From IMG/VR virus record IMGVR_UViG_3300045051_001504, positions 1 to 21,313 of that record: a DNA stretch of 21,313 bases; one strand, 5' to 3'. Within the stretch, counting starts at the first letter, position 1. Every line of letters starts with the position of its first letter. Of this stretch, positions 3,366 through 21,095 are shown piece by piece. This DNA is from a virus. Under the pieces are notes generated by a model. That model did not search any database. It had not been told where the DNA came from and saw only the letters and a list, made by a program, of their open reading frames with translations. The position numbers and the translations under genes are program-made.

Positions 3366-5402
3366 TCACAGCTTTCGCGGGATGGCGGAGACGTAGTCGG
3401 CGGCGGTGATGGCGGGTTGTTCGATGTGCTGGGCGAACCAGCCGAGCAGGGTGACGGCGGCGTGGCCCATGACTTCGCAGTCGAGCCAGTGGTTGTCGCG
3501 GCGCATGTGCAGCACGCCGCGTTCGTCGGTCCACTGGCGCGGGCGCCAGATGCTACGAATGCAGTGGCGACCCTTGATTACCGCCTGCTCCTGGATGCGT
3601 TCTTCAGCCTGGAGGGAGTCGAGATAGAAACGCGGCGCGTTGGCGGGGACGTTAAATTTCTGGCGACCCGGCGCGCCACGCATGACCTCGAAGAGATCGT
3701 CGCGGAAGTGGTGGGCGTTGTAGTAGAACACCACCGGAAGACCGCACAGCGTCGGTGCGTTGCGTGGGGTTTGCCGTATTTCCGACCACGGGGTTTCCGG
3801 CGACATGGTACCGCTGCCAGCGATCGAGACGCGGCGCATCGGTTCGCGGGCGCACCATTGGCGGATTGAGCGGATCATCGACCCGTTGGCGGTGTCGATG
3901 GTGATAAGGTCGGCGGCGCGCACCTGCTGCCCGATGGGCCATGTCTTGGCGGCGAGCAGCTCGAGCTGGTCGAAGCCGACGACCTTACCAGCCTCAACCA
4001 GCCAGCTTTCCCCGGTGGCGGCATAGGCGCGGACGCGATACGGAAACCAGGACTTTTCCGGGGTTTCGCCCTGCTGGTCACAGGATAACACGACGCGCCA
4101 TGCATCGACCGGGCACATGCCGTGCTGGTAGGCAGGGGTGTCGGCGGTAATGACGGTGATGGTTTCGGCGGTGACGGAGGCGCAGCGGGCAACGAATGGT
4201 TCACAGCGCCAGCCGTTGATAAAGGCTTGGCGATCTTCGTCCTTGGCGTTGCGCGTCTCGATGTCTTTGGCAAGGAATTGACCGACCGTAATGAAGCGCG
4301 AATACATCGAATTAAGCCAGCCAGACCGATGCAATCCGGTGGGACGCGCGACTGTTTCGGCACGGCCTGTGGCTTCACTGAACGTAGCGGCGGCGGTCCA
4401 TGAACCGACGCCCTGTGCGTCCTGCGTCCACTCGCCAGGAACCCACCCACCCGCCTCGCTGAAACCCAAAGATTCACAGGCGCGCGCCATGATGAGATGT
4501 ACATCATCGGTGCAGTGTGGGCGGGCACATTTCGAACATTTCCATATGGCGGCATCTTCGGCGGCGATGGCGCTATGAGACATACCAGAACGCAGCGGCT
4601 CGATGCGGTCGGGGTCTAGATACTGGTGCGCGCCACAGAACCGACAGGCCACCAGAAGGCGTTCATTTGATCCCTTGCAGAGCGATGACCAGCCCAAGGA
4701 ACTGACGAAGGTCGGCGTAGTGATGCCCAGGCGCAGACGGTCGAAGGGGAACGTTTTCTGACGGTCATCGATCAGCGCGATGGGAGATCCTTCTCCGTCG
4801 ACATTTTCCGGAAGTGCGTCGAATTCATCGAGAAAAACCAGAGGCAAGTCGTCGGAACGCAAGTGAAGTGCGACCGCACCGTTTTTGAAATGGATAGCGA
4901 GTTCGGGAAGAAACCATGCCTTTGTCCCCATAAGACGCTGCATTTCGCTGGCTCCTTTGGGGACCAGATGATGTAGGCGTGGCGACTTACGAAATACCTT
5001 GTCGAGTTTATTTTTTCCAAAGTGTTTTGCTGTATCGTGGCTGGGTAAAATTACCCCCAGATCACGGGGATATAGCACCGCGACCCAAGCGAGTAGTGGT
5101 GACATGAGCCCCTGGGTCTTGCCGATCTGAGTCCCTGCAATGAGTGAGATAGCTTCGACCTGATGCGCGGTGGGATCATGGTCCGGAACGATCCCCGTGA
5201 TGCGAGCACGGGCGATGGAATGCCAGTGACGCCAGTAGGGTGTGAGCGACTGGACGTATGGGGTGATGCCGCTGCCGCGCGGGACCATGATGTGCTGATC
5301 CCCCCAATCGCCGATCGACATGCTGCGCTCGGCGTCGGCCTGGGCATCACGGTCGAGGACGGCGGAAATGAAGTCGTCGTTGGTCGGCGCGGCGTGAACC
5401 AT
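3366..5402 (-). CDS. Terminase large subunit, GpA family
   Basis: 678 residues, close to lambda gpA (641). The N-terminal ATPase carries a Walker A-like GTQIGKTQ (90-97) and a Walker B LVFLDEFDALP (188-198). A Cys-pair insertion, CRFC (253-256) and CSKC (289-292), is probably a structural zinc site. The C-terminal half holds acidic residues such as the CDQQGE region, as expected for the nuclease that cuts at genome ends. The protein cuts concatemeric phage DNA and drives it into the prohead. ATG 5402 follows the terS stop by one base. The gene order terS-terL-connector-portal-protease supports a lambda-like packaging module. Confidence 0.95.
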   Translation of the reverse strand: MVHAAPTNDDFISAVLDRDAQADAERSMSIGDWGDQHIMVPRGSGITPYVQSLTPYWRHWHSIARARITGIVPDHDPTAHQVEAISLIAGTQIGKTQGLMSPLLAWVAVLYPRDLGVILPSHDTAKHFGKNKLDKVFRKSPRLHHLVPKGASEMQRLMGTKAWFLPELAIHFKNGAVALHLRSDDLPLVFLDEFDALPENVDGEGSPIALIDDRQKTFPFDRLRLGITTPTFVSSLGWSSLCKGSNERLLVACRFCGAHQYLDPDRIEPLRSGMSHSAIAAEDAAIWKCSKCARPHCTDDVHLIMARACESLGFSEAGGWVPGEWTQDAQGVGSWTAAATFSEATGRAETVARPTGLHRSGWLNSMYSRFITVGQFLAKDIETRNAKDEDRQAFINGWRCEPFVARCASVTAETITVITADTPAYQHGMCPVDAWRVVLSCDQQGETPEKSWFPYRVRAYAATGESWLVEAGKVVGFDQLELLAAKTWPIGQQVRAADLITIDTANGSMIRSIRQWCAREPMRRVSIAGSGTMSPETPWSEIRQTPRNAPTLCGLPVVFYYNAHHFRDDLFEVMRGAPGRQKFNVPANAPRFYLDSLQAEERIQEQAVIKGRHCIRSIWRPRQWTDERGVLHMRRDNHWLDCEVMGHAAVTLLGWFAQHIEQPAITAADYVSAIPRKL

Positions 5403-6372: not shown

Positions 6373-7731
6373 TCACGCCCCCATCTGCACCGGAATACGC
6401 ACCGCCGTCTTGCCGGTGAGCGATTCCCAACGCCGCACGATCACATCGCAGTAGCGCGGGGCGAGTTCGACCAAACGAGCGTGGCGACCGAGCTGCTCGC
6501 AGGCAATCAGGGTGGTGCCGCTGCCGCCGAAGGGATCGAGCACCACGCCGCCGGGCGGGCAGGAATTGCCGATGAGGTAGGCGAAGAGTGCGACGGGTTT
6601 CATCGTCGGGTGGTCATCGTTGCGGGCCGGGCGGTCGAATTCGAGCACGGTGGTCTGGCTGCGGTCAGATAACCAGGTGTGTGCGGCGCCGGGAATCCAA
6701 CCGTAGAGGCACGGCTCGTGTCGCCATTGGTAGTCTTGGCGTCCAAGGACGAGGGAGTTTTTCACCCAGATCAGGCACTGGCGCACAGGTAGACCGGCAT
6801 GATCGCAGGCAGTGCGAACAGCGAGGCCCTCGCTGTCCGCGTGCCAGACGTAGAACGCAGCGCCGCGCGCGAGAAAGCGCTCGGCATTGGACAACACTTC
6901 GTCCAGGAAATTCCGATAGTCCGTATCGCTCATATCATCGTTGGCGATGGTCATGGCATCGGCGGTTTTCCCAGCGTAGGCGACGTTGTACGGGGGATCA
7001 GTGAGCAGTAGGCTGACCTGCTCACCTTCGGACAGCAGGGCTTCAAGCACGTCGGGGTTGGTGCTGTCACCACAGATCAGGCGGTGATCGCCCATCCCCC
7101 ACACGTCGCCGGGCTTGGTGACAGGATCGATGGGCACCGGCGGCACAGCGTCGGGGTCGCCGTGGAGCTGCTGCTCGGACAGCTCGCGCAGCATGCGGTC
7201 TAGCGCGGGGGTTTTGATCATCAGATTGTCGATCTTCTCGGCTGCGTTGGCGAGATCGCGCAGCAGCAGGGTGAGTTTGGTCTCGTCCCATTCGCCGGCG
7301 TGACCGTTGAGCGTGATGACCAGGCGCTGCTCATCTGCGTCGGTGCAGGTGACCACCCAGCAGGGCGCGGTGGTATCACCGCGAGCAAGTAGGGCATGCA
7401 GGCACTGATGCCCCGACAGTAGACGGTGCGTGCCATCGGACAGTAGGCGGGCGACGAAAACGCCGACGTAGCTGTGACGCTCGATCGAGGACGCGAGATC
7501 CGCCGCACCCTGTTTGGTGACCGTGCGCGGATTGTCGGCGTTGGGGACGAGAGCGGCGAGAGGAAAGGCGGGATGGAGCGTGGGAGTGGCCATGGTCATG
7601 GTTTCGTAGTTGTCGGTGGTGGTGGTGTCGCGAGCGCCGCGCAGAAACGCGAGGACGAGGCCCAGGATGACGAGCAGCAACCCGATGATCAGGCAGCTCA
7701 GGCCCAGGGCGAAGAGCAGCGGATCATTCAT
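6373..7731 (-). CDS. DNA methyltransferase with ParB-like domain and N-terminal membrane helix
   Basis: 452 residues from ATG 7731, which overlaps the previous gene by 8 nt; GTG 7740 is an alternative. Order of parts: hydrophobic helix (about 4-30), Thr-rich linker, ParB/Srx-like domain (about 50-140, with HRLLSGHQCLHALLARG), then the methylase. The catalytic DPPY motif IV (245-248) precedes the SAM-binding motif DPFGGSGTT (399-407), which is the beta-class order for N4-cytosine or N6-adenine methyltransferases. Such ParB-methylase fusions are common in phages and protect DNA or change its marking. The membrane helix is unusual. A start at Met45 or Met47 (7599/7593) would remove it, but no SD precedes those codons. 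The target sequence cannot be read from the gene. Confidence 0.9.
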   Translation of the reverse strand: MNDPLLFALGLSCLIIGLLLVILGLVLAFLRGARDTTTTDNYETMTMATPTLHPAFPLAALVPNADNPRTVTKQGAADLASSIERHSYVGVFVARLLSDGTHRLLSGHQCLHALLARGDTTAPCWVVTCTDADEQRLVITLNGHAGEWDETKLTLLLRDLANAAEKIDNLMIKTPALDRMLRELSEQQLHGDPDAVPPVPIDPVTKPGDVWGMGDHRLICGDSTNPDVLEALLSEGEQVSLLLTDPPYNVAYAGKTADAMTIANDDMSDTDYRNFLDEVLSNAERFLARGAAFYVWHADSEGLAVRTACDHAGLPVRQCLIWVKNSLVLGRQDYQWRHEPCLYGWIPGAAHTWLSDRSQTTVLEFDRPARNDDHPTMKPVALFAYLIGNSCPPGGVVLDPFGGSGTTLIACEQLGRHARLVELAPRYCDVIVRRWESLTGKTAVRIPVQMGA

Positions 7732-11741: not shown

Positions 11742-12200
11742 TCAGAACGGCGGCTCATCGTCGGTGAGGCTGGTACCAGCGGGCGCGGCGGCGGGTGCAG
11801 ATGCCGATGAGGTAGACGCAGGTGCGGATTCACCGGCAGCATCCGGCGACTGCGCACCGTGCGCAGTCGCGTCGGACCGCTTGCTGGGCGCGAATTGGAA
11901 GTCGGCGTTCATGAGTTCGAGGCTGGTGCGCGCTACACCGTTCTTGTCGTTGTATTCGCGGGTTTCCGGCCAGCCGGTGCAGATCACCAGGGAGCCTTGC
12001 TTCAGGTATTTCGCGGCAGTCTGGCCGCGCTTGCCCCATAGGGTGACATTCCACCACATGGTTTTTTCCTGCGCTTGTCCGTTGGCGGTGAATTTGCGCG
12101 AAACGGCGACGCTGAACGACACGGCAGTGTCGTTGTTGACGGCACGGACGGACGGGTCGCGTCCGAGGAAGCCGAAGATGGTGGTTTGGGCGAAGCTCAT
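11742..12200 (-). CDS. ssb: Single-stranded DNA-binding protein
   Basis: 152 residues. The OB-fold domain (1-110) shows typical landmarks: IFGFLGRDPSVR, VSFSVAVSR, MWWNVTLWGKRG and LVICTGWPETREY. A disordered Ala/Ser/Pro linker leads to the acidic tip DDEPPF (147-152), the conserved SSB C-terminal hook that recruits primase, RecO and other partners. SD AGGA lies 8 nt before ATG 12200. It follows the primase-helicase gene by 27 bp, forming a replication module. Confidence 0.95.
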   Translation of the reverse strand: MSFAQTTIFGFLGRDPSVRAVNNDTAVSFSVAVSRKFTANGQAQEKTMWWNVTLWGKRGQTAAKYLKQGSLVICTGWPETREYNDKNGVARTSLELMNADFQFAPSKRSDATAHGAQSPDAAGESAPASTSSASAPAAAPAGTSLTDDEPPF

Positions 12201-12227: not shown

Positions 12228-15200
12228 TCAGTGGTCGAGGAAGGGCGGTTCGTCCTCATCCGCACCGGGTTCGCGCGGCGGCGTGGTGCGGAAGAGGTCT
12301 TCGGATTCAGTCGGTGGACCGGCGAAGCGGCGGCGTCCGGTGAGGTCGTCAGTGCCGGGAGGCGGCAGTGGGATCAGTGGCGGTCCAACCGTGGGGTCGG
12401 TCTCGCCAACGATTCCTTCACAGTCTTTCCCTCCCTGTGATGAGAGAGGGAAATTTGAATGGTTGCGCGTATACGCGTGTGCGCCCGCCATCGTTGGATC
12501 GTTGGCGTGTTGCGCCAAGTCCGCTTGTGTCACGGCGTTAGTTCCGCCAACGATTGGCGGAATAATCGTTGGCATATCGTTGGCGGATCGTTGCGAGGCC
12601 GGAAAAATTGGCTGTTGGGCGGTGGAAAACTGGCTGTCGTCGATCAAGTCGAGGGGTGCGTCAGCGGCGGTTTGGCGGCCTGCCAACGATCCGGGGCGGG
12701 AATCGTTGGCGGGCGATCCAGGCAGGGCGCGGGCATCGTCGCCGGGGCCGCGCAGGCGGATGCCGCCATAGGCACTGACCGACTTGGAATGGCCGTCGAT
12801 GACCTGGCGGTCCCAGCGGTCGAGGGTGACGCCGCGCTTGGATAGACGCTGGCCGACGCCCTTGGTCGAGATGGGCTTCTTGCCGTTGCGATCGCACCAG
12901 CCCTTGTATTCGCGGTAGAAGTCGGCCTTGCTGATCGAGTGGGATTCTTCTTCGGTGATGACGAAGAGTTCCTCGAGCATTTCACGCAGCGGGTCTTGAT
13001 CGTCGCGGTAGGCTTGGCTGGCGTTGCGGACGATCTCGGGCGGGTCGAGTCCGCGTTCGGCGTATTCGACGGCACCGGCCACCATCCAGGCGAGAATGGC
13101 GGCGCGGGCGGCGGGGCTTTCGCACAGGTAGGGCTGCAGGTCTTCGTCGCGCTTCGTGGGCAGGTGGTCGCATTTGACCAAGTACATGCGCCGCCAGAAG
13201 CCGCTGTCGGTGTCGCTGACGTAGGGCGCGTCGTTACAGACGAACATGACCTTGAAGAGCGGCTTGTATTCGAAGGGATGGCCGCCCTTACGTTCGGCTT
13301 CGATCTTGGTGCCGCCTGAGACGCTTTTGATTAGGGCGGCGTTGAAGCGCTGGCCTTCCTCGGATTCTTCGCACACGATCAGGCGGCACTGGCTGGCTTC
13401 GGCCAACGACCATTTGCGTTTGTCGGAGTTCTTCGCCAGGAATAGTTCGAAGGGGATGGCGCGGGCATAGCCGCCCAGCACCGCCATGAGGGCCTGGACG
13501 AAGGTCGATTTGCCCGAGCCGCCGATACCGGCGAGCATGAAGGTAGCCTGGGTCTTGGAGAGGCCGGTGCTGCAATACCCGGCGACCCGGCGCAGGAAGG
13601 CCATGAGCGAGGGATCGCTACCGGTGAGCGAGTGCAGGTAGGATAGCCATTTCGCATCACGCGCCGCTGGATCGTAGACGATGTCGGCGGTGCGCGTGAT
13701 GTAGTCGGTACGGTCGTGTGGGCGCAGTTCACCCGTGCGGAGGTCGAGCGTGCCGTTCGTGCAGGTGAGCTTCCAGGGGTCGGTGTCGAGCTGCGCCGCA
13801 TTGATCGTCAGCAGCGAGCGCAGGCGGTTGACCGAGTTCTGCAGCGGGCGGTCGTTTTTGTTCTTGCGCCTCCAGGCGATGAGTTCGTCGCGTCGGTCGG
13901 GGCTGTGTGCGGTTTGGATTTCATCAGCGATGGAGTCGATGGTGGCCACCATCATGCGGTCCACCTGCAGGCCGTTTTCGTCCACCTGCCAGTGGGTTCC
14001 GGTCCAGGTGAGGAACGTGCCCCAGGTTTCGCAGTAGACGACATCCTTGCCGTAGCGGGCCTGAAAGCGCAGGGCGTTGCCGTGTTCGTTGGTCTCAAAG
14101 AACACCGGAGCGGGTTCTTCTGGCTTGGCTGGTGCGCGGGGCTTGCTGCGCTCGTCGGCTTCGGCCTGGGCATTGGCGGCGGCAAGGACCGCGTCGGAGA
14201 GGCGTCGCCGCGCAATCGGGCGGTCGATCTTGAGCAGCTTGGCGGTCTGTGTGAGGTAGAGGTCCGACAGTTCGGTATCGGGGATGGCGTGGATCAGGCC
14301 GATGATTTCATCCAGCACGCGCAGACGAGCGGGCTGGTCGTCGTCGCGCAGATCTGCCGCGAGGCGGTCGAGCAGCCACGGCAAAACTGGCGTGGCCTTG
14401 GTCACCGCGTCGGCGAATGCTTGCTTGGTTTCGGCGGTGGCGGCTTCGACCAGGGCCTCGGCGGGGTCCATGTCGTCAGGCAGGGCGGCGATTTTTGCCG
14501 GAGCACCAGCGGTGAGCAGCAGGCGGGCAGTGCGCTCGCTCGCCTTCTGGCCGGCCTGATCGCCGTCGAGGGCGACGATGACGTCGGTGTTGCGCGCTGC
14601 CCGCATGATGGCGGCGGCTTGGTCGGCGGTGAAGGCGGTGCCAAGCGGTGCGACGCATTCGGGGAAACCGGCCTGCGCCGCGGCGATCACGTCGAGCGCG
14701 CCCTCGAGCACCAGCACGCGGTGGCGGATCTTGGCGGCGCTCGCGGCGGTGCGCAGGTTGAAGACCGAGGCACCCTTCTTGAACACCTCGGTTTCTGCCG
14801 TGTTCACGTACTTCGGGCACGTGCGGTTCTTCTGTTTGGCCTCGATCTCGTCAGCGGGCAGCGCTCGGGCGGTGAAGCCGATCACGCGCCGTGAGGTGTC
14901 GATGATCGGGACCACGACGCGGCGGAAGAAACGGTCGCGCAGCTCGCCGGACTTGGCCTTCATCACCAGATCGGCGGCGACGAGATCTTCAGCGGCGATG
15001 CCCGCATCCAGCGCCGCGACGAGCAGCGCGTCACCGCCGTTCGCCCAGCCCATGCGGAAGGTGCGGATGGTCACATCAGTCAGCCGACGATCTTCCGTCA
15101 GGTAGATCCGGGCGGGATTCCCGGTGACGGTGTCGAGATCCCGCTCATAGACGGACGCGGCGAATTCCAGCGCATGCAAGATGCGGTCGGTGCGCTCGCG

Positions 15201-16540: not shown

Positions 16541-16994
16541 GGCTGTCCTCCCGCAGGCTCTGACGGAGGTTGACGACCAGCTCGGTGAGATGGGCGAGAT
16601 GGGCTTCGGCGTTGGCTAGGCAGACCCGCTTTTCCCCGGCGGTGATGCGCTTCCCTCCGGGGCTATTCTTCGACAGCGCACGCATCAGGTTGCCGATGAC
16701 GTCGCCCCCTCCGGCAATCGTTTTCTCCGCTAGGCTCTCGGTGTCCCCTGTCGGGATGGCAGACGCAGGTGGCGAGAAACGGTCCTGCAGCAGCGCCATG
16801 ACCTGTGCGTCGAGATCGGCAAAGCGGGCGAGTTCGCTCCAGCGCCAGTGGTGAGGATCGGATCGGCGTGCGGCGATGCTTTTGCCGTCGAGGCCGAGCA
16901 GGCGACCGAGTTGACGCTCGGTGTAGTGCTCGGCGATGATCTCGTTGATGCCGTTAAACAGGTCGGCATCGAGCCGGTGAGAGTCCCGAATCAT
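16527..16994 (-). CDS. HTH regulator, possible CII-like protein
   Basis: 155 residues from ATG 16994 (ATGA overlap with the gene before). An HTH is visible at about 26-46 (ERQLGRLLGLDGKSIAARRS), followed by a linker and a C-terminal helical region (130-155, HLAHLTELVVNLRQSLRE) that could oligomerise. Second gene of the leftward operon after a Cro-position gene, the location of CII-type regulators in lambdoid phages. The family call is positional. Confidence 0.7.
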   Translation of the reverse strand: MIRDSHRLDADLFNGINEIIAEHYTERQLGRLLGLDGKSIAARRSDPHHWRWSELARFADLDAQVMALLQDRFSPPASAIPTGDTESLAEKTIAGGGDVIGNLMRALSKNSPGGKRITAGEKRVCLANAEAHLAHLTELVVNLRQSLREDSHGSR

Positions 16995-17386
16995 GCCACA
17001 CCGGCCTGCGGAACATGCTCCGCATCATGTTCCTGACTTTCCGCACCCCAGGTGTCATTATCTCTGGTATGACCACCAAGATTCAGCCGCGCGATAACGT
17101 CCCGTGCCTGCTCGACGGTGTCGATGACGATGCCAAAGCGGTCGAGCTTCGCCCGTTCCAGTGCCGCGACGACGATCAGGGCGCGGACGTTGATGCCCGC
17201 CTTGCGGGCGATCTCTTTGAGCGTCTCCGGCTTGGGGATGCGCTTGCCGCGCAGCACCGCGTTGTAGTGGTTCTCGCAGATACCGATGCGCTCGGCGAAG
17301 GCCTTATTGGTCGGGGATCCGGCGCGCTGTTGCGCAGCCCGGAACAGGTCAGCGACTGTCGTATTGGGGGATGGCTGGTGGCCCAT
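16991..17386 (-). CDS. Xre-family HTH regulator, Cro position
   Basis: 131 residues. The Xre-type HTH is clear at 26-50 (NKAFAERIGICENHYNAVLRGKR) and is followed by a helix ending EIARKAGI. It is the first gene of the leftward operon, has a strong SD (GAGGAGAG, 4 nt before ATG 17386), and lies 20 bp from the nearer operator. By position it is the Cro-like or early control protein, expected to bind one or both 18-bp operators. The C-terminal third has no recognised motif. Confidence 0.8.
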   Translation of the reverse strand: MGHQPSPNTTVADLFRAAQQRAGSPTNKAFAERIGICENHYNAVLRGKRIPKPETLKEIARKAGINVRALIVVAALERAKLDRFGIVIDTVEQARDVIARLNLGGHTRDNDTWGAESQEHDAEHVPQAGVA

Positions 17387-17405: not shown

Positions 17406-17423
17406 TTCGAGAAAACTCTCGAA
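17406..17423. promoter_or_regulatory. Operator 1 (18-bp dyad)
   Basis: TTCGAGAAAACTCTCGAA has perfect 7-bp arms (TTCGAGA/TCTCGAA) around AAAC. It lies 20 bp upstream of the start of the leftward regulator and just above its SD, so binding here should block leftward transcription. Confidence 0.8.
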
Positions 17424-17470: not shown

Positions 17471-17488
17471 TTCGAGAGTTTTCTCGAA
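17471..17488. promoter_or_regulatory. Operator 2 (inverted exact copy of operator 1)
   Basis: TTCGAGAGTTTTCTCGAA is the exact reverse complement of operator 1; the two centres are 65 bp apart. It lies on the side of the rightward regulator genes, ending 49 bp before GTG 17538. The pair probably forms the lysis-lysogeny switch. Confidence 0.8.
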
Positions 17489-17537: not shown

Positions 17538-17936
17538 GTGGCAGACGACTTTCGCCAGCTATTAGATCGCCTGATACGGCGAGAGTTCCCGAGCCAACTG
17601 GCCTTCGTGAAGGCGGCTTGGCCGGGGAAAAGCCCAGGGTCGGCGTCGTCGATCGTTGGCCAGGTCATCAGCGGTAAAATGTACCCACCGCTTGACGTGG
17701 TCCCTGCCTGGGCCGACGCGCTCCGCCTGAACGACGAAGAGCGCGCTGCCTTCATCCTCGCCGCCTACCTCGCCCACTGCCCGCAGCTCATCGCCGACGA
17801 GTTCTTGGCCATGCGGGCACAACTTGAGAAGAACAAGCGCATTCATGCGGAAAACCAAGCGAAAATAGCGCAGCTACAAGCCGCCGTTGATCGTCTATCA
17901 CTGCCGCGCAATCGCGTAGCGGACGGTCCTGAATGA
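17538..17936 (+). CDS. Xre-like HTH protein A, candidate repressor
   Basis: 132 residues from GTG 17538; TTG 17517 would add seven. The N-terminal half (1-80) has a compact helical DNA-binding layout, with SSIVGQVISGKMYPPLDVVPAW (38-59) as the recognition and following region. Shared features show it is a paralogue of the next gene: S..V..(L/V)..G(R/K)..PP..VVP.W and AAYLAH. The C-terminal half (about 85-122) is a coiled coil that could dimerise the protein. It is divergent from the Cro-position gene across the two operators, so it is the best repressor candidate. It has no peptidase-type cleavage domain, so induction would differ from lambda. Confidence 0.7.
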   Translation: MADDFRQLLDRLIRREFPSQLAFVKAAWPGKSPGSASSIVGQVISGKMYPPLDVVPAWADALRLNDEERAAFILAAYLAHCPQLIADEFLAMRAQLEKNKRIHAENQAKIAQLQAAVDRLSLPRNRVADGPE

Positions 17937-17982: not shown

Positions 17983-17994
17983 TAGCTTGTGGGG
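17983..17994 (+). promoter_or_regulatory. Possible leaderless -10 of second rightward regulator
   Basis: TAGCTT (17983-17988) lies 6 nt before ATG 17995, the same spacing as the TATGGT-GTG arrangement of the gene before. No matching -35 is visible. The GGGG directly abutting the ATG is too close to act as an SD. Confidence 0.3.
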
Positions 17995-18279
17995 ATGGTC
18001 CCCTCTCGCTTCGGCGGCGTCCTGCTGCGCATTCTCGACGCCCACGGGATCACCAGAGCCGAGTTCGCGCGGCAGATCAGCCACCCGCGCAGCTACGTCA
18101 CGTACTTGGTCGATGGGCGAAACCGCCCCCCGCCCGAGGTGGTCCCCTACTGGTGCGCGCTCCTCGGTTTTTCCGACCAGGAACAGGCCGCGCTGCTCGA
18201 TGCGGCCTACCTCGCCCACACGCCCGAGCCCATCGTTCTCGAGCTGCTGCAACTGCGCGCCAAGTCGCGCCACCGCTAA
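17995..18279 (+). CDS. Xre-like HTH protein B, paralogue of A
   Basis: 94 residues from ATG 17995; GTG 17989 would add two. It is one HTH domain without the coiled-coil tail: ITRAEFARQISHPRSYVTYL (19-38) is the HTH, followed by GRNRPPPEVVPYWCALLGFS and DAAYLAH. Alignment by eye with protein A is continuous over about 70 residues. Lacking the dimerisation tail, it could compete with A for operators or form mixed complexes, which is inference. It begins 58 bp after gene A on the same strand. Confidence 0.65.
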   Translation: MVPSRFGGVLLRILDAHGITRAEFARQISHPRSYVTYLVDGRNRPPPEVVPYWCALLGFSDQEQAALLDAAYLAHTPEPIVLELLQLRAKSRHR

Positions 18280-19078: not shown

Positions 19079-19552
19079 ATGGCCGAACGCGTCTGCACCA
19101 ATTGTCGAACGGTTTTTACCGCAAAATTACCCACCGGAGGATGGATTACGCTGGCACTCGGCCTTGCCTTCATGGGGCTTTTCGTCGCCGCGCTCTTCTC
19201 GGGAGTAGGACTGGCGGGCGTTCTGCTCGGTCTGGTTCCCTCCCTCATCTGCCTGAATGCCGCGAGTCGATCCCGCCGATCCTGTCCGGAATGCGGGGGG
19301 AAGGATGCCATTCCGTCAGAAACGCCGCGCGGACAAGAGTTGCTACGCAATACGACGTCGGCGCGGGGCGGAGCTGCGGCAAACACGGAGTTTGCTGGCC
19401 CCGTCTTCAGACCGCCCAAGCAGCCGGGGCAGGGTCGCCCGGCATCGAAACAGCAGATTGATTTCCTGCGTAAAAATGGCGTCTCTGAGGAGACGCTGGC
19501 AACGCTGACGTATGTTGAAGCCGGCATAATGGCATCGCGGGTGAAACAATAA
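19079..19552 (+). CDS. Zinc-ribbon membrane protein coupled to the recombinase
   Basis: 157 residues from ATG 19079, with AAGGA upstream as SD. CTNC (6-9) and CPEC (69-72) form the two halves of one zinc ribbon. Between them lie two hydrophobic segments (about 22-42 and 45-60), a membrane hairpin that would bring both Cys pairs to the same face. A flexible linker leads to a small C-terminal helix-turn motif, ASKQQIDFLRKNGV (122-135) with VEAGIM, a module seen at the end of various mobile-element proteins. Its stop overlaps the recombinase start as TAATG. Function unknown; superinfection exclusion or control of the recombinase are possibilities. Confidence 0.7.
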   Translation: MAERVCTNCRTVFTAKLPTGGWITLALGLAFMGLFVAALFSGVGLAGVLLGLVPSLICLNAASRSRRSCPECGGKDAIPSETPRGQELLRNTTSARGGAAANTEFAGPVFRPPKQPGQGRPASKQQIDFLRKNGVSEETLATLTYVEAGIMASRVKQ

Positions 19553-21060
19553 TGGCCAAGCCTTGGATCATCTACCGCCGTGTTTCAACGGATGAGCAGG
19601 CCAAGGAAGGCGTCAGCCTCGAGGCGCAACTCAACGCCTGCCGCATCATGCTCCAGGCCCAGGGCGTCATGGACGAACCAGAGGTCGTCACCGACGACGG
19701 CTACTCTGGCAAGAACCTCAAGCGTCCTGGCATGGCAGCCATCATCGAGCGTGCTCGCAAGCGCGAGATCTCGGGTGTCTGCGCCTATGCCCTTGATCGC
19801 CTGACCCGTTCGCGCCGCGATATCATGCCGATCCTCGACGCCCTCGAGACCAGTGCGGCCGCGCTCGTCACCGTGCGCGACAAGATCGACACCGGTGGGG
19901 CTGCCGGCCGTTTTGTCCTGCACCTGCTCGTCAACCTCGCCAACCTCGAGATCGAGCAGACGGGCGAGCGCGTGAAGCTGGCGATGCACCACCAGAAAGC
20001 GCAGGGCGGACATCCGCACCAAGCCCCGGCGGGCACCGTCCTCGTCCGAGGAGACGACCGCATCCCACGCCTCGCGCCGCACCCCCAGCATGCCGACGCG
20101 GTGCGTCAAGCGCTGCATCGCATCGCCGATGGCGGCACCCTACGCGAGGCCAGCGAGATCCTGGACGCCGCCAAGGTGCCCACGCGCAACGGCAAAGCGT
20201 GGCTGAAAGCCACGGTCCACAGCCTTGCGCTCAACCGCAACCTGATCGGCCCCCTGATCGACCAACAAACCCATGACCGCATCGTCGCGGCCTTTTCCGC
20301 GAGATCGCCGTCCAAGCGTCGCCTAGCGGCGTCCCAGGAAGGGCTCGCTTCAATCCCCACCAAGCCCGCCTGCGCCCTTGCCGGCATCGCATTCTGTTCG
20401 CGCTGCGGCTACGCACTGGTGCAGGGCTTCGCCGTCGGCGGAAACGGCACCCGTTACGTCTACCTGCGCTGCGCTGGTCGTATCAAGCGTGGCAAGGCGT
20501 TTTGTTCCGCACCCGACATCCCGGCCCCCATCGCCGAGGACGCGATCATCGACGCCCTCGCCGAGTCTGCGACCGACGGGACGATCGCCGCCCGCCTCGA
20601 CGCCTGGATGGCCGAACGGACGGCCTCCGTCCGCAAGGCCCTGAGCGACCAGCTCCCGCTGCGCCGTCAGCGGGACGAACTGAACCGCCGGGTACGCATG
20701 ATCCTGGAGTGCCTCGAGGATGGCAGCCTGCCGCGCCAAACCGCCGGCCAGCGCCTGCGCGATCACGAAGCGGAACTCCAGATCGTCGACGCCAAGCTCG
20801 CCGCCCTGGACAGCGCCGACGACCTCCTGGCCCTGCACCAAAGCGCCCGGGATCAAACTATCGCGGCAATCAGCCGGGGGCTTTCCCTCCTGAGCGAAGA
20901 ACCGCCCGAGACGCGAAATCGCGTTTTATCCGGGCTTTTATCGCGCGTTGAGATGGATCGCGACACCGGCGTGACGATCACGCTCAGCGTCGCGGGTTGT
21001 TCGCAAAAGTGTCAAGAGTGGCGACCCCGGCGTGATTCGAACACGCGACCTTCGGTTTAG
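19552..21060 (+). CDS. Large serine recombinase (phage integrase)
   Basis: 502 residues. The resolvase-type catalytic domain (1-150) has nucleophile Ser12 in YRRVSTDEQ and the arginine motif ALDRLTRSRRD (80-90). The recombinase domain follows (about 155-260), then a zinc ribbon (C282, C285, C307, C318) and a coiled coil (about 365-425). This is the usual layout of large serine integrases, which join attP and attB without supercoiling. The start overlaps the previous stop as TAATG. The last 14 residues, up to the stop, are encoded antisense to the tRNA-Arg gene, so the C-terminus depends on the attachment site sequence. This places the gene at the element boundary. Confidence 0.95.
   Translation: MAKPWIIYRRVSTDEQAKEGVSLEAQLNACRIMLQAQGVMDEPEVVTDDGYSGKNLKRPGMAAIIERARKREISGVCAYALDRLTRSRRDIMPILDALETSAAALVTVRDKIDTGGAAGRFVLHLLVNLANLEIEQTGERVKLAMHHQKAQGGHPHQAPAGTVLVRGDDRIPRLAPHPQHADAVRQALHRIADGGTLREASEILDAAKVPTRNGKAWLKATVHSLALNRNLIGPLIDQQTHDRIVAAFSARSPSKRRLAASQEGLASIPTKPACALAGIAFCSRCGYALVQGFAVGGNGTRYVYLRCAGRIKRGKAFCSAPDIPAPIAEDAIIDALAESATDGTIAARLDAWMAERTASVRKALSDQLPLRRQRDELNRRVRMILECLEDGSLPRQTAGQRLRDHEAELQIVDAKLAALDSADDLLALHQSARDQTIAAISRGLSLLSEEPPETRNRVLSGLLSRVEMDRDTGVTITLSVAGCSQKCQEWRPRRDSNTRPSV
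21019..21060. other. Probable attachment-site region
   Basis: The tRNA 3' half overlaps the recombinase 3' end. Integrases encoded at element ends beside a tRNA normally use that tRNA as attB, and the element carries the tRNA 3' segment so that the gene stays intact. The exact core and the other att site cannot be defined because the left end is outside the window. Confidence 0.6.
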
Positions 21061-21095
21061 GAAACCAACGCTCTATCCAGCTGAGCTACAGGGTC
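21019..21095 (-). tRNA. tRNA-Arg (anticodon CCU)
   Basis: Read on the minus strand it folds into a complete cloverleaf. The acceptor stem is GACCCTG/CGGGGTC with one G-U pair; the D arm is GCTC...GAGC. The anticodon stem TTGGT/ACCGA encloses loop TTCCTAA with anticodon CCT, and the T arm is GCGTG TTCGAAT CACGC. The discriminator is G and CCA is encoded. It reads AGG codons. The recombinase 3' end lies within its 3' half. Confidence 0.97.

Follow-up and report, generated by a model that had tools for sequence, protein, structure and literature searches.

The locus and its genes

The window, i.e., the whole stretch of DNA that was analysed, is an IMG/VR virus record of 21,313 bp that encodes a lambda-type terminase (GpA) and a portal protein. 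The features discussed here are collected in Table 1. The product of the primase-helicase gene matches the Pfam families DNAG_N, Zn_ribbon_DnaG, Toprim, D5_N and DUF5906 and scores above the cut-offs for TIGR01391 (dnaG) and TIGR01613 (P4-family primase C-terminal). As it combines a primase with D5_N and an SF3 helicase and passes the TIGR01613 cut-off, the enzyme is a member of the P4-family (D5-type), and among solved helicases it shows sequence matches to PDB 7ola (SaPI5) and 8iqh (C962R). At the right end of the record a gene for a large serine recombinase overlaps a tRNA-Arg(CCT) gene (19552-21095), which probably marks the prophage attachment site. Two perfect 18-bp dyads of the form TTCGAGA-N4-TCTCGAA, located at 17406-17423 and 17471-17488 with AAAC and GTTT as centres, lie between divergent HTH-type genes and are probable repressor operators of a lysogeny switch. 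The left end of the contig is occupied by a 36-bp tandem repeat of 5.2 copies (1-187), the minus strand of which is open as 12-residue repeats. The record may be incomplete, i.e., a fragment.

Table 1. Features of the window discussed in the text (positions in the 21,313-bp record)
Feature	Position	Strand	Basis or remark
ParB-like protein gene	9413-11455		matches ParB-like phrog_1033
Single-strand binding protein (SSB) gene	11742..12200	-	PF00436; next in primase-helicase operon; product ends LTDDEPPF
Primase-helicase CDS, 1096 aa	12228..15518	-	CHC2 zinc ribbon, DnaG-type Toprim primase, D5_N/DUF5906 SF3 helicase
Extended coding tail carrying the array	12228..12716	-	ORF and GC3 profile; ends DEDEPPFLDH
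Iteron ATCGTTGGC	12405..12413	-	exact; far side of purine-pyrimidine tract
Hairpin arms TTTCCCTCCCT / AGAGAGGGAAA	12426..12453	.	in lower-GC segment, beside purine-pyrimidine tract
Alternating purine-pyrimidine tract TGCGCGTATACGCGTGTGCGC	12464..12484	.	21 bp; contains palindrome CGCGTATACGCG
Near iteron ATCGTTGGA	12490..12498	+	8 bp from next copy
Iteron ATCGTTGGC	12498..12506	+	exact
Inverted repeat TTCCGCCAA-CGA-TTGGCGGAA	12542..12562	.	21 bp; includes iteron 12546-12554(-)
Iteron ATCGTTGGC	12546..12554	-	exact; inside inverted repeat
Iteron ATCGTTGGC	12565..12573	+	exact; 11-bp phased
Iteron ATCGTTGGC	12576..12584	+	exact; 11-bp phased
Degenerate iteron ATCGTTGCG	12587..12595	+	third of 11-bp phased trio
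Second short direct repeat AAAATTGGCTGT / AAAACTGGCTGT	12604..12637	+	22 bp apart; weak
Iteron ATCGTTGGC	12682..12690	-	exact
Iteron ATCGTTGGC	12702..12710	+	exact; 6 bp past conserved domain
Last conserved part, C-terminal domain ending ...SAYGGIRLR	12717..12850	-	alignment with P4-family relatives
HTH protein genes	16991-17386 and 17989-18279

The repeat array and its statistics

The 3' end of this CHC2/Toprim/D5 (P4-family) primase-helicase gene contains an array of short repeats. The 9-mer ATCGTTGGC occurs nine times on both strands of the whole record and seven of these exact copies lie within the 306 bp of 12405-12710, whereas the only others are single copies at 6937-6945 and 17652-17660; the reversed control pattern of ATCGTTGGC does not occur in the record. 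This count bears out the earlier note, which had described, by eye, seven exact and two near copies in both orientations within about 300 bp and two exact copies elsewhere. Also borne out are the phasing of three copies at 11 bp (12565/12576/12587) and the reading of the iterons in all three codon frames, as AND, IVG, GSLA, MPTI, DPTM and SQRS. The same note had centred one copy in a 17-bp palindrome; the copy at 12546-12554 indeed overlaps an inverted repeat, which however extends over 21 bp. Apart from the 36-bp repeat at the left end, the array word forms the best 8- and 9-mer cluster in the window, and no second iteron cluster was found elsewhere in it. A DnaA-box cluster was not recognised in the array, as ATCGTTGGC is unlike the consensus of DnaA boxes, which are TTATCCACA-like 9-mers.

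The tail of the protein is proline-rich and apparently disordered and the genome is GC-rich with many spurious repeats, so that the array might be attributed to chance or to a codon or protein-repeat artefact of a low-complexity tail. The last 170 codons were resampled among the synonymous codons used by the gene itself. In 20,000 of these codon-preserving draws the 9-mer reached at most four copies compared to seven observed and the 8-mer at most five compared to eight observed, and in 3,000 draws no 8-mer of whatever sequence exceeded six copies. GC3 over the array amounts to 0.58-0.62 compared to approximately 0.8 in the body of the gene. As the copies occur in both orientations and in three frames and exceed the resampling maximum, the repeats are a property of the DNA. 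They are selected as DNA, and a protein repeat does not suffice to explain them, as had been proposed earlier. An origin by chance or artefact, against which the positional match to relatives described below is independent evidence, is practically untenable and is refuted as far as computation allows.

Two further readings accept the array as a set of protein-binding sites and assign it to other proteins encoded in the window. An operator array for an early repressor or activator is conceivable since two HTH proteins are encoded, but the divergent promoter region has its own perfect dyads at 17406 and 17471, the array is situated inside an operon and nine copies are many for an operator, making this reading extremely unlikely. 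A partition site (centromere) for the ParB-like protein is very unlikely: plasmid centromeres typically also have multiple short phased repeats and the gene product matches phrog_1033, but the repeats here are non-palindromic 9-mers 1-3 kb away from the ParB gene, no ParA/ParM-type motor was found among the window proteins scanned, which comprise part of the ORFs, and other P4-family replicons share the location immediately behind the primase-helicase domain.

The coding tail

The last conserved block of the primase-helicase is probably a winged-helix DNA-binding domain; a single-sequence AF2 model of residues 838-940 is of low confidence (pLDDT 56) and shows helices and strands compatible with such a fold. 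The first iteron starts 6 bp beyond the last conserved codon (12717). The open frame continues for approximately 162 codons past the conserved block, while in most relatives it ends after no more than a few dozen. Translation of this tail is likely but not certain, because an open frame of such length is expected by chance with a probability of about 7%. The end of the tail, DEDEPPFLDH, resembles the tip of the SSB of the same phage (LTDDEPPF; 11742-11765), with different codons. This likeness hints that the end of the tail is functional and that the array is placed in a linker; the tip may possibly be a mimic of the SSB tip or may share a partner with it.

Further DNA elements in the array

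Besides the iterons, the array contains a lower-GC segment, a hairpin and an alternating purine-pyrimidine tract, all of which were missed in the earlier note. GC drops to 0.45-0.47 over 12420-12479 compared to 0.65 for the gene. The tract is the only alternating purine-pyrimidine run of at least 13 bp in the 21.3-kb window and sits between the iterons at 12490/12498 and the one at 12405, at distances of 5 and 50 bp, respectively. Of the nine iterons that flank the lower-GC segment 12414-12489, eight are located on one side and a single one on the other, all of them inside the gene. GC skew follows gene orientation with a sign change near 17.5 kb; it neither places an origin at the array nor excludes one there and thus provides no independent support.

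Position of iterons in P4-family relatives

A peptide-pattern scan (primase and terminase in IMG/VR, primase in GTDB) yielded no useful close relatives. Because no close relative was found, the position of the repeats was tested instead of their sequence. Regions downstream of, upstream of and inside primase genes were searched with a blind k-mer cluster scan, in which a score of at least 3 was counted as a cluster. The first sample comprised 40 loci, including the window, taken from a set of 246 genomes of a single phylum, that of a Planctomycetota genome, as well as from named phages and plasmids; the second comprised 32 loci from Alphaproteobacteria and Acidobacteriota scored in the same way. 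Clusters were found downstream in 22 of the 40 loci of the first sample, with none upstream and one inside the gene (Wilcoxon p 5e-9), and downstream in 15 of 32 loci of the second, with none upstream or inside (p 4e-8). Without the window, iterons directly follow the conserved C-terminal domain in 36 of 71 loci (upstream 0, inside 1), a number that refers to sequence loci which are not fully independent and which are only candidates for replicating elements; by the score used here, a cluster is lacking in about half of the relatives. As positive control, the same scoring applied to phage P4 ranked crr first (4291-4590, with alpha at 4636) and ori second.

The iteron words are replicon-specific, such as AACGTCCC, CCGTCAGA, ATCTGTCA, GGACCAACA, AGGGTACT and others. 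Position and layout persist across distant relatives while motif and tail residues change. In a frequent layout, two copies approximately 10 bp apart are followed by a spacer and then by another pair, the inner copies being approximately 55-75 bp apart; compared with this pair-spacer-pair arrangement the array of the window is larger and asymmetric. Where relatives have a cluster, the array in most cases extends across the stop codon or comes after it. It lies wholly inside the coding sequence also in L228, L232 and L292, the tails of which are shorter than that of the window. A zinc-ribbon-like tail follows the winged-helix block in the primases of L228, L232, L215 and L229, and in L228 and L232 the iterons are in frame between these two parts. 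In an Acidobacteriota replicon (L290), iterons of the sequence GGTGAAC (+++---), a word similar to GGTGAACA of P4, are located 1-106 bp after the primase match. In Acidithiobacillus phage AcaML1 (L254) the predicted origin is situated immediately behind the primase gene.

These data support the earlier proposal of a candidate replication origin or element, as P4-family genes of several phyla as well as P4 itself (crr) carry iteron clusters at the same place. Judged from sequence, the array most likely constitutes a cis-acting replication element (an origin or an element of the P4 crr type) of this phage or prophage, to which we assign a rough probability of 0.78.

The purine-pyrimidine tract across relatives

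Alternating purine-pyrimidine tracts of at least 16 bp were noticed in the first sample, where they occur downstream in 12 of 40 loci, including the window, and neither upstream nor inside the gene, and were then met again in the second sample, with nine of 32 loci downstream, none upstream and one inside. Without the window this corresponds to 20 of 71 loci. Of 24 loci checked, 23 have iterons on both sides of the tract, most often at a distance of 15-20 bp on each side; this figure is descriptive, as these loci were chosen mostly by tract length. The distances in the window (5 and 50 bp) are atypical compared to the relatives. No description of an alternating purine-pyrimidine origin centre was found in the literature searched, which is not a proof of absence.

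It is conceivable that P4-family (D5) replicons of many phyla share an undescribed origin layout, in which replicon-specific short iterons are placed on both sides of a tract of approximately 14-27 bp, with a typical distance of 15-20 bp to each inner iteron. The layout would be located immediately behind the C-terminal domain of the initiator, regardless of whether the frame is still open there. DNA opening would be assigned to the tract as a conserved non-B-DNA element (Z-forming or cruciform), and the window would represent an asymmetric variant that is entirely embedded in coding sequence. We regard the case for this proposal as evenly balanced.

The iteron word in other elements

Literal scans for ATCGTTGGC were performed for three copies within 30-bp gaps, for a convergent triple and for an 11-bp phased triple, and a search of the literature for the motif string gave no informative result. 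The first scan gave 53 stretches, with spacings that are mostly multiples of three, as in protein repeats, and the second gave two matches in unrelated genes, near the number expected by chance; both were set aside. The 11-bp phased triple occurs in six stretches in IMG/VR, those in L022, L062/L063 and L064 being part of replication-initiator genes, and in at least 120 in GTDB, which are dominated by Bacteroidales minisatellites. The genes were matched to DUF1376 (L022), to a PHROG replication initiation protein (L062/L063) and weakly to a DnaD-like protein (L064). L022, L062 and L064 carry ATCGTTG at 11-bp phase inside the initiator gene, although these initiators are unrelated to that of the window. 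Like the window, DUF1376/replisome-organiser initiators (L022, L062, L064, L188, L191, L194) have iteron-like arrays in or beside the gene; in Alphaproteobacteria such arrays were found in DUF1376 genes or their neighbourhood at 1304-1360 in L188, 1195-1300 in L194 and 1741-1850 in L191. The words of sister DUF1376 genes are GCGTTAC, GCGTCAC and CGTCACG, and the idea of a universal ATCGTTGG binder was dropped, as these genes use other words. Because sister genes differ and the word was itself the search query, its 11-bp-phased occurrence in DUF1376-type initiators is probably convergent and does not point to a common binder. Dispersed 11-bp minisatellites of the ATCGTTGATAT-type were seen in L068, L072, L080 and many further Bacteroidales contigs, often as inverted arrays separated by approximately 45-55 bp; they are spread over one Bacteroidales MAG (RGIG5467) and its relatives.

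A possible mechanism

Three candidate binders had been named for the array, i.e., the primase-helicase itself, the ParB-like protein and an early HTH protein. By analogy, the primase-helicase is the best supported of these as the likely binder, because its relatives SaPI Rep and Cch2, self-loading initiator helicases (Primase_Cterm, D5-like), attach via the C-terminal domain to iterons just 3' of their own genes (PMC7581432). Recognition by this domain is unproven here, because the similarity of the domain and that of the iterons do not covary significantly across the relatives (Mantel p 0.19); pairs sharing at least six iteron bases have a mean domain similarity of 0.243 compared to 0.145, a difference that is only descriptive.

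In the mechanism that we propose, the C-terminal winged-helix-like domain would bind the 9-bp iterons in both orientations and thereby bring helicase subunits to the lower-GC segment 12414-12489. This segment, with its hairpin and the 21-bp purine-pyrimidine tract, would then open, the tract being able in principle to melt, to extrude or to turn to Z-DNA under negative supercoiling. The D5 helicase would load at the opened segment, the N-terminal Toprim domain would prime and the SSB encoded next door would cover the strands. Initiator and target would travel as one cassette, in which the DNA target would moreover be translated and form a linker within the extended tail.

Elements of the P4/SaPI type are known as such; potentially new are the embedding in a coding sequence and, as a general layout, the arrangement around a purine-pyrimidine centre. 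If true, a single simple rule would suffice to predict the origins of many uncultured elements from their sequence, and it would become directly testable how non-B DNA contributes to the loading of a self-loading helicase. The window would be an added case of an origin that is also translated.

Comparison with known systems

The analogy to the P4 iterons drawn in the earlier note stands, as crr is directly 3' of alpha and is ranked first by the same scoring. As in P4, in which alpha acts as primase, helicase and origin binder on crr and ori, a Toprim primase is fused to a D5/SF3-type helicase and short iterons in both orientations lie directly 3' of the primase-helicase domain. In P4 crr lies after the stop codon of alpha and a terminator, whereas the array of the window is inside the coding tail. 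The P4 motif is GGTGAACA and P4 is without a purine-pyrimidine run longer than 12 bp. Furthermore, unlike the window, P4 has a second iteron cluster (ori), located approximately 2 kb past the distal end of alpha, and its mapped start is ori and not crr, though crr is required. The array could accordingly be a crr-like helper, needed in cis for replication and bound by the primase-helicase at its iterons, while the strand-opening start is located elsewhere, and crr, distinct from ori, occupies exactly the array's position. Against this, the window has only the single copies at 6937 and 17652 and no second cluster, in a record that may be a fragment, the lower-GC segment, the hairpin and the purine-pyrimidine tract are all inside the array, and in PICI/SaPI-type elements the 3' region is the origin itself (PMC6092414). 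We consider a pure helper role unlikely, the preferred reading being an ori/crr-type element that may itself be the start site.

Such an element would resemble the rep-ori of SaPIs and PICIs, in which a self-loading initiator helicase (the SaPI5 primase-helicase, PDB 7ola) has iterons directly 3' of its gene. In these origins an easily melted, AT-rich centre is enclosed by two sets of iterons (PMC6092414). SaPI primases are, in contrast, of the AEP type, whereas the window encodes a Toprim type in a GC-rich element, with the array in a coding tail and with a purine-pyrimidine tract. The putative origin of SCCmec Cch2 is similar in that direct repeats downstream of a Primase_Cterm/D5 helicase are bound there by the C-terminal domain; unlike the window, it has only three 5-bp AAGTG iterons and a separate CCPol-MP primase. 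For pRN1 it was shown that a stem-loop just after the primase gene is needed (PMC4234260).

The analogy to lambda ori, also drawn earlier, holds in one part. Iterons are embedded in the coding sequence of a replication gene in both cases (gene O in lambda). The iterons of lambda are dyads of approximately 18 bp bound by O, which recruits the host DnaB through P, while those of the window measure 9 bp and no O/P-like pair was found among the window proteins scanned, so that the array does not qualify as a lambda-type ori. Unlike lambda, the element in the window encodes its own helicase and primase.
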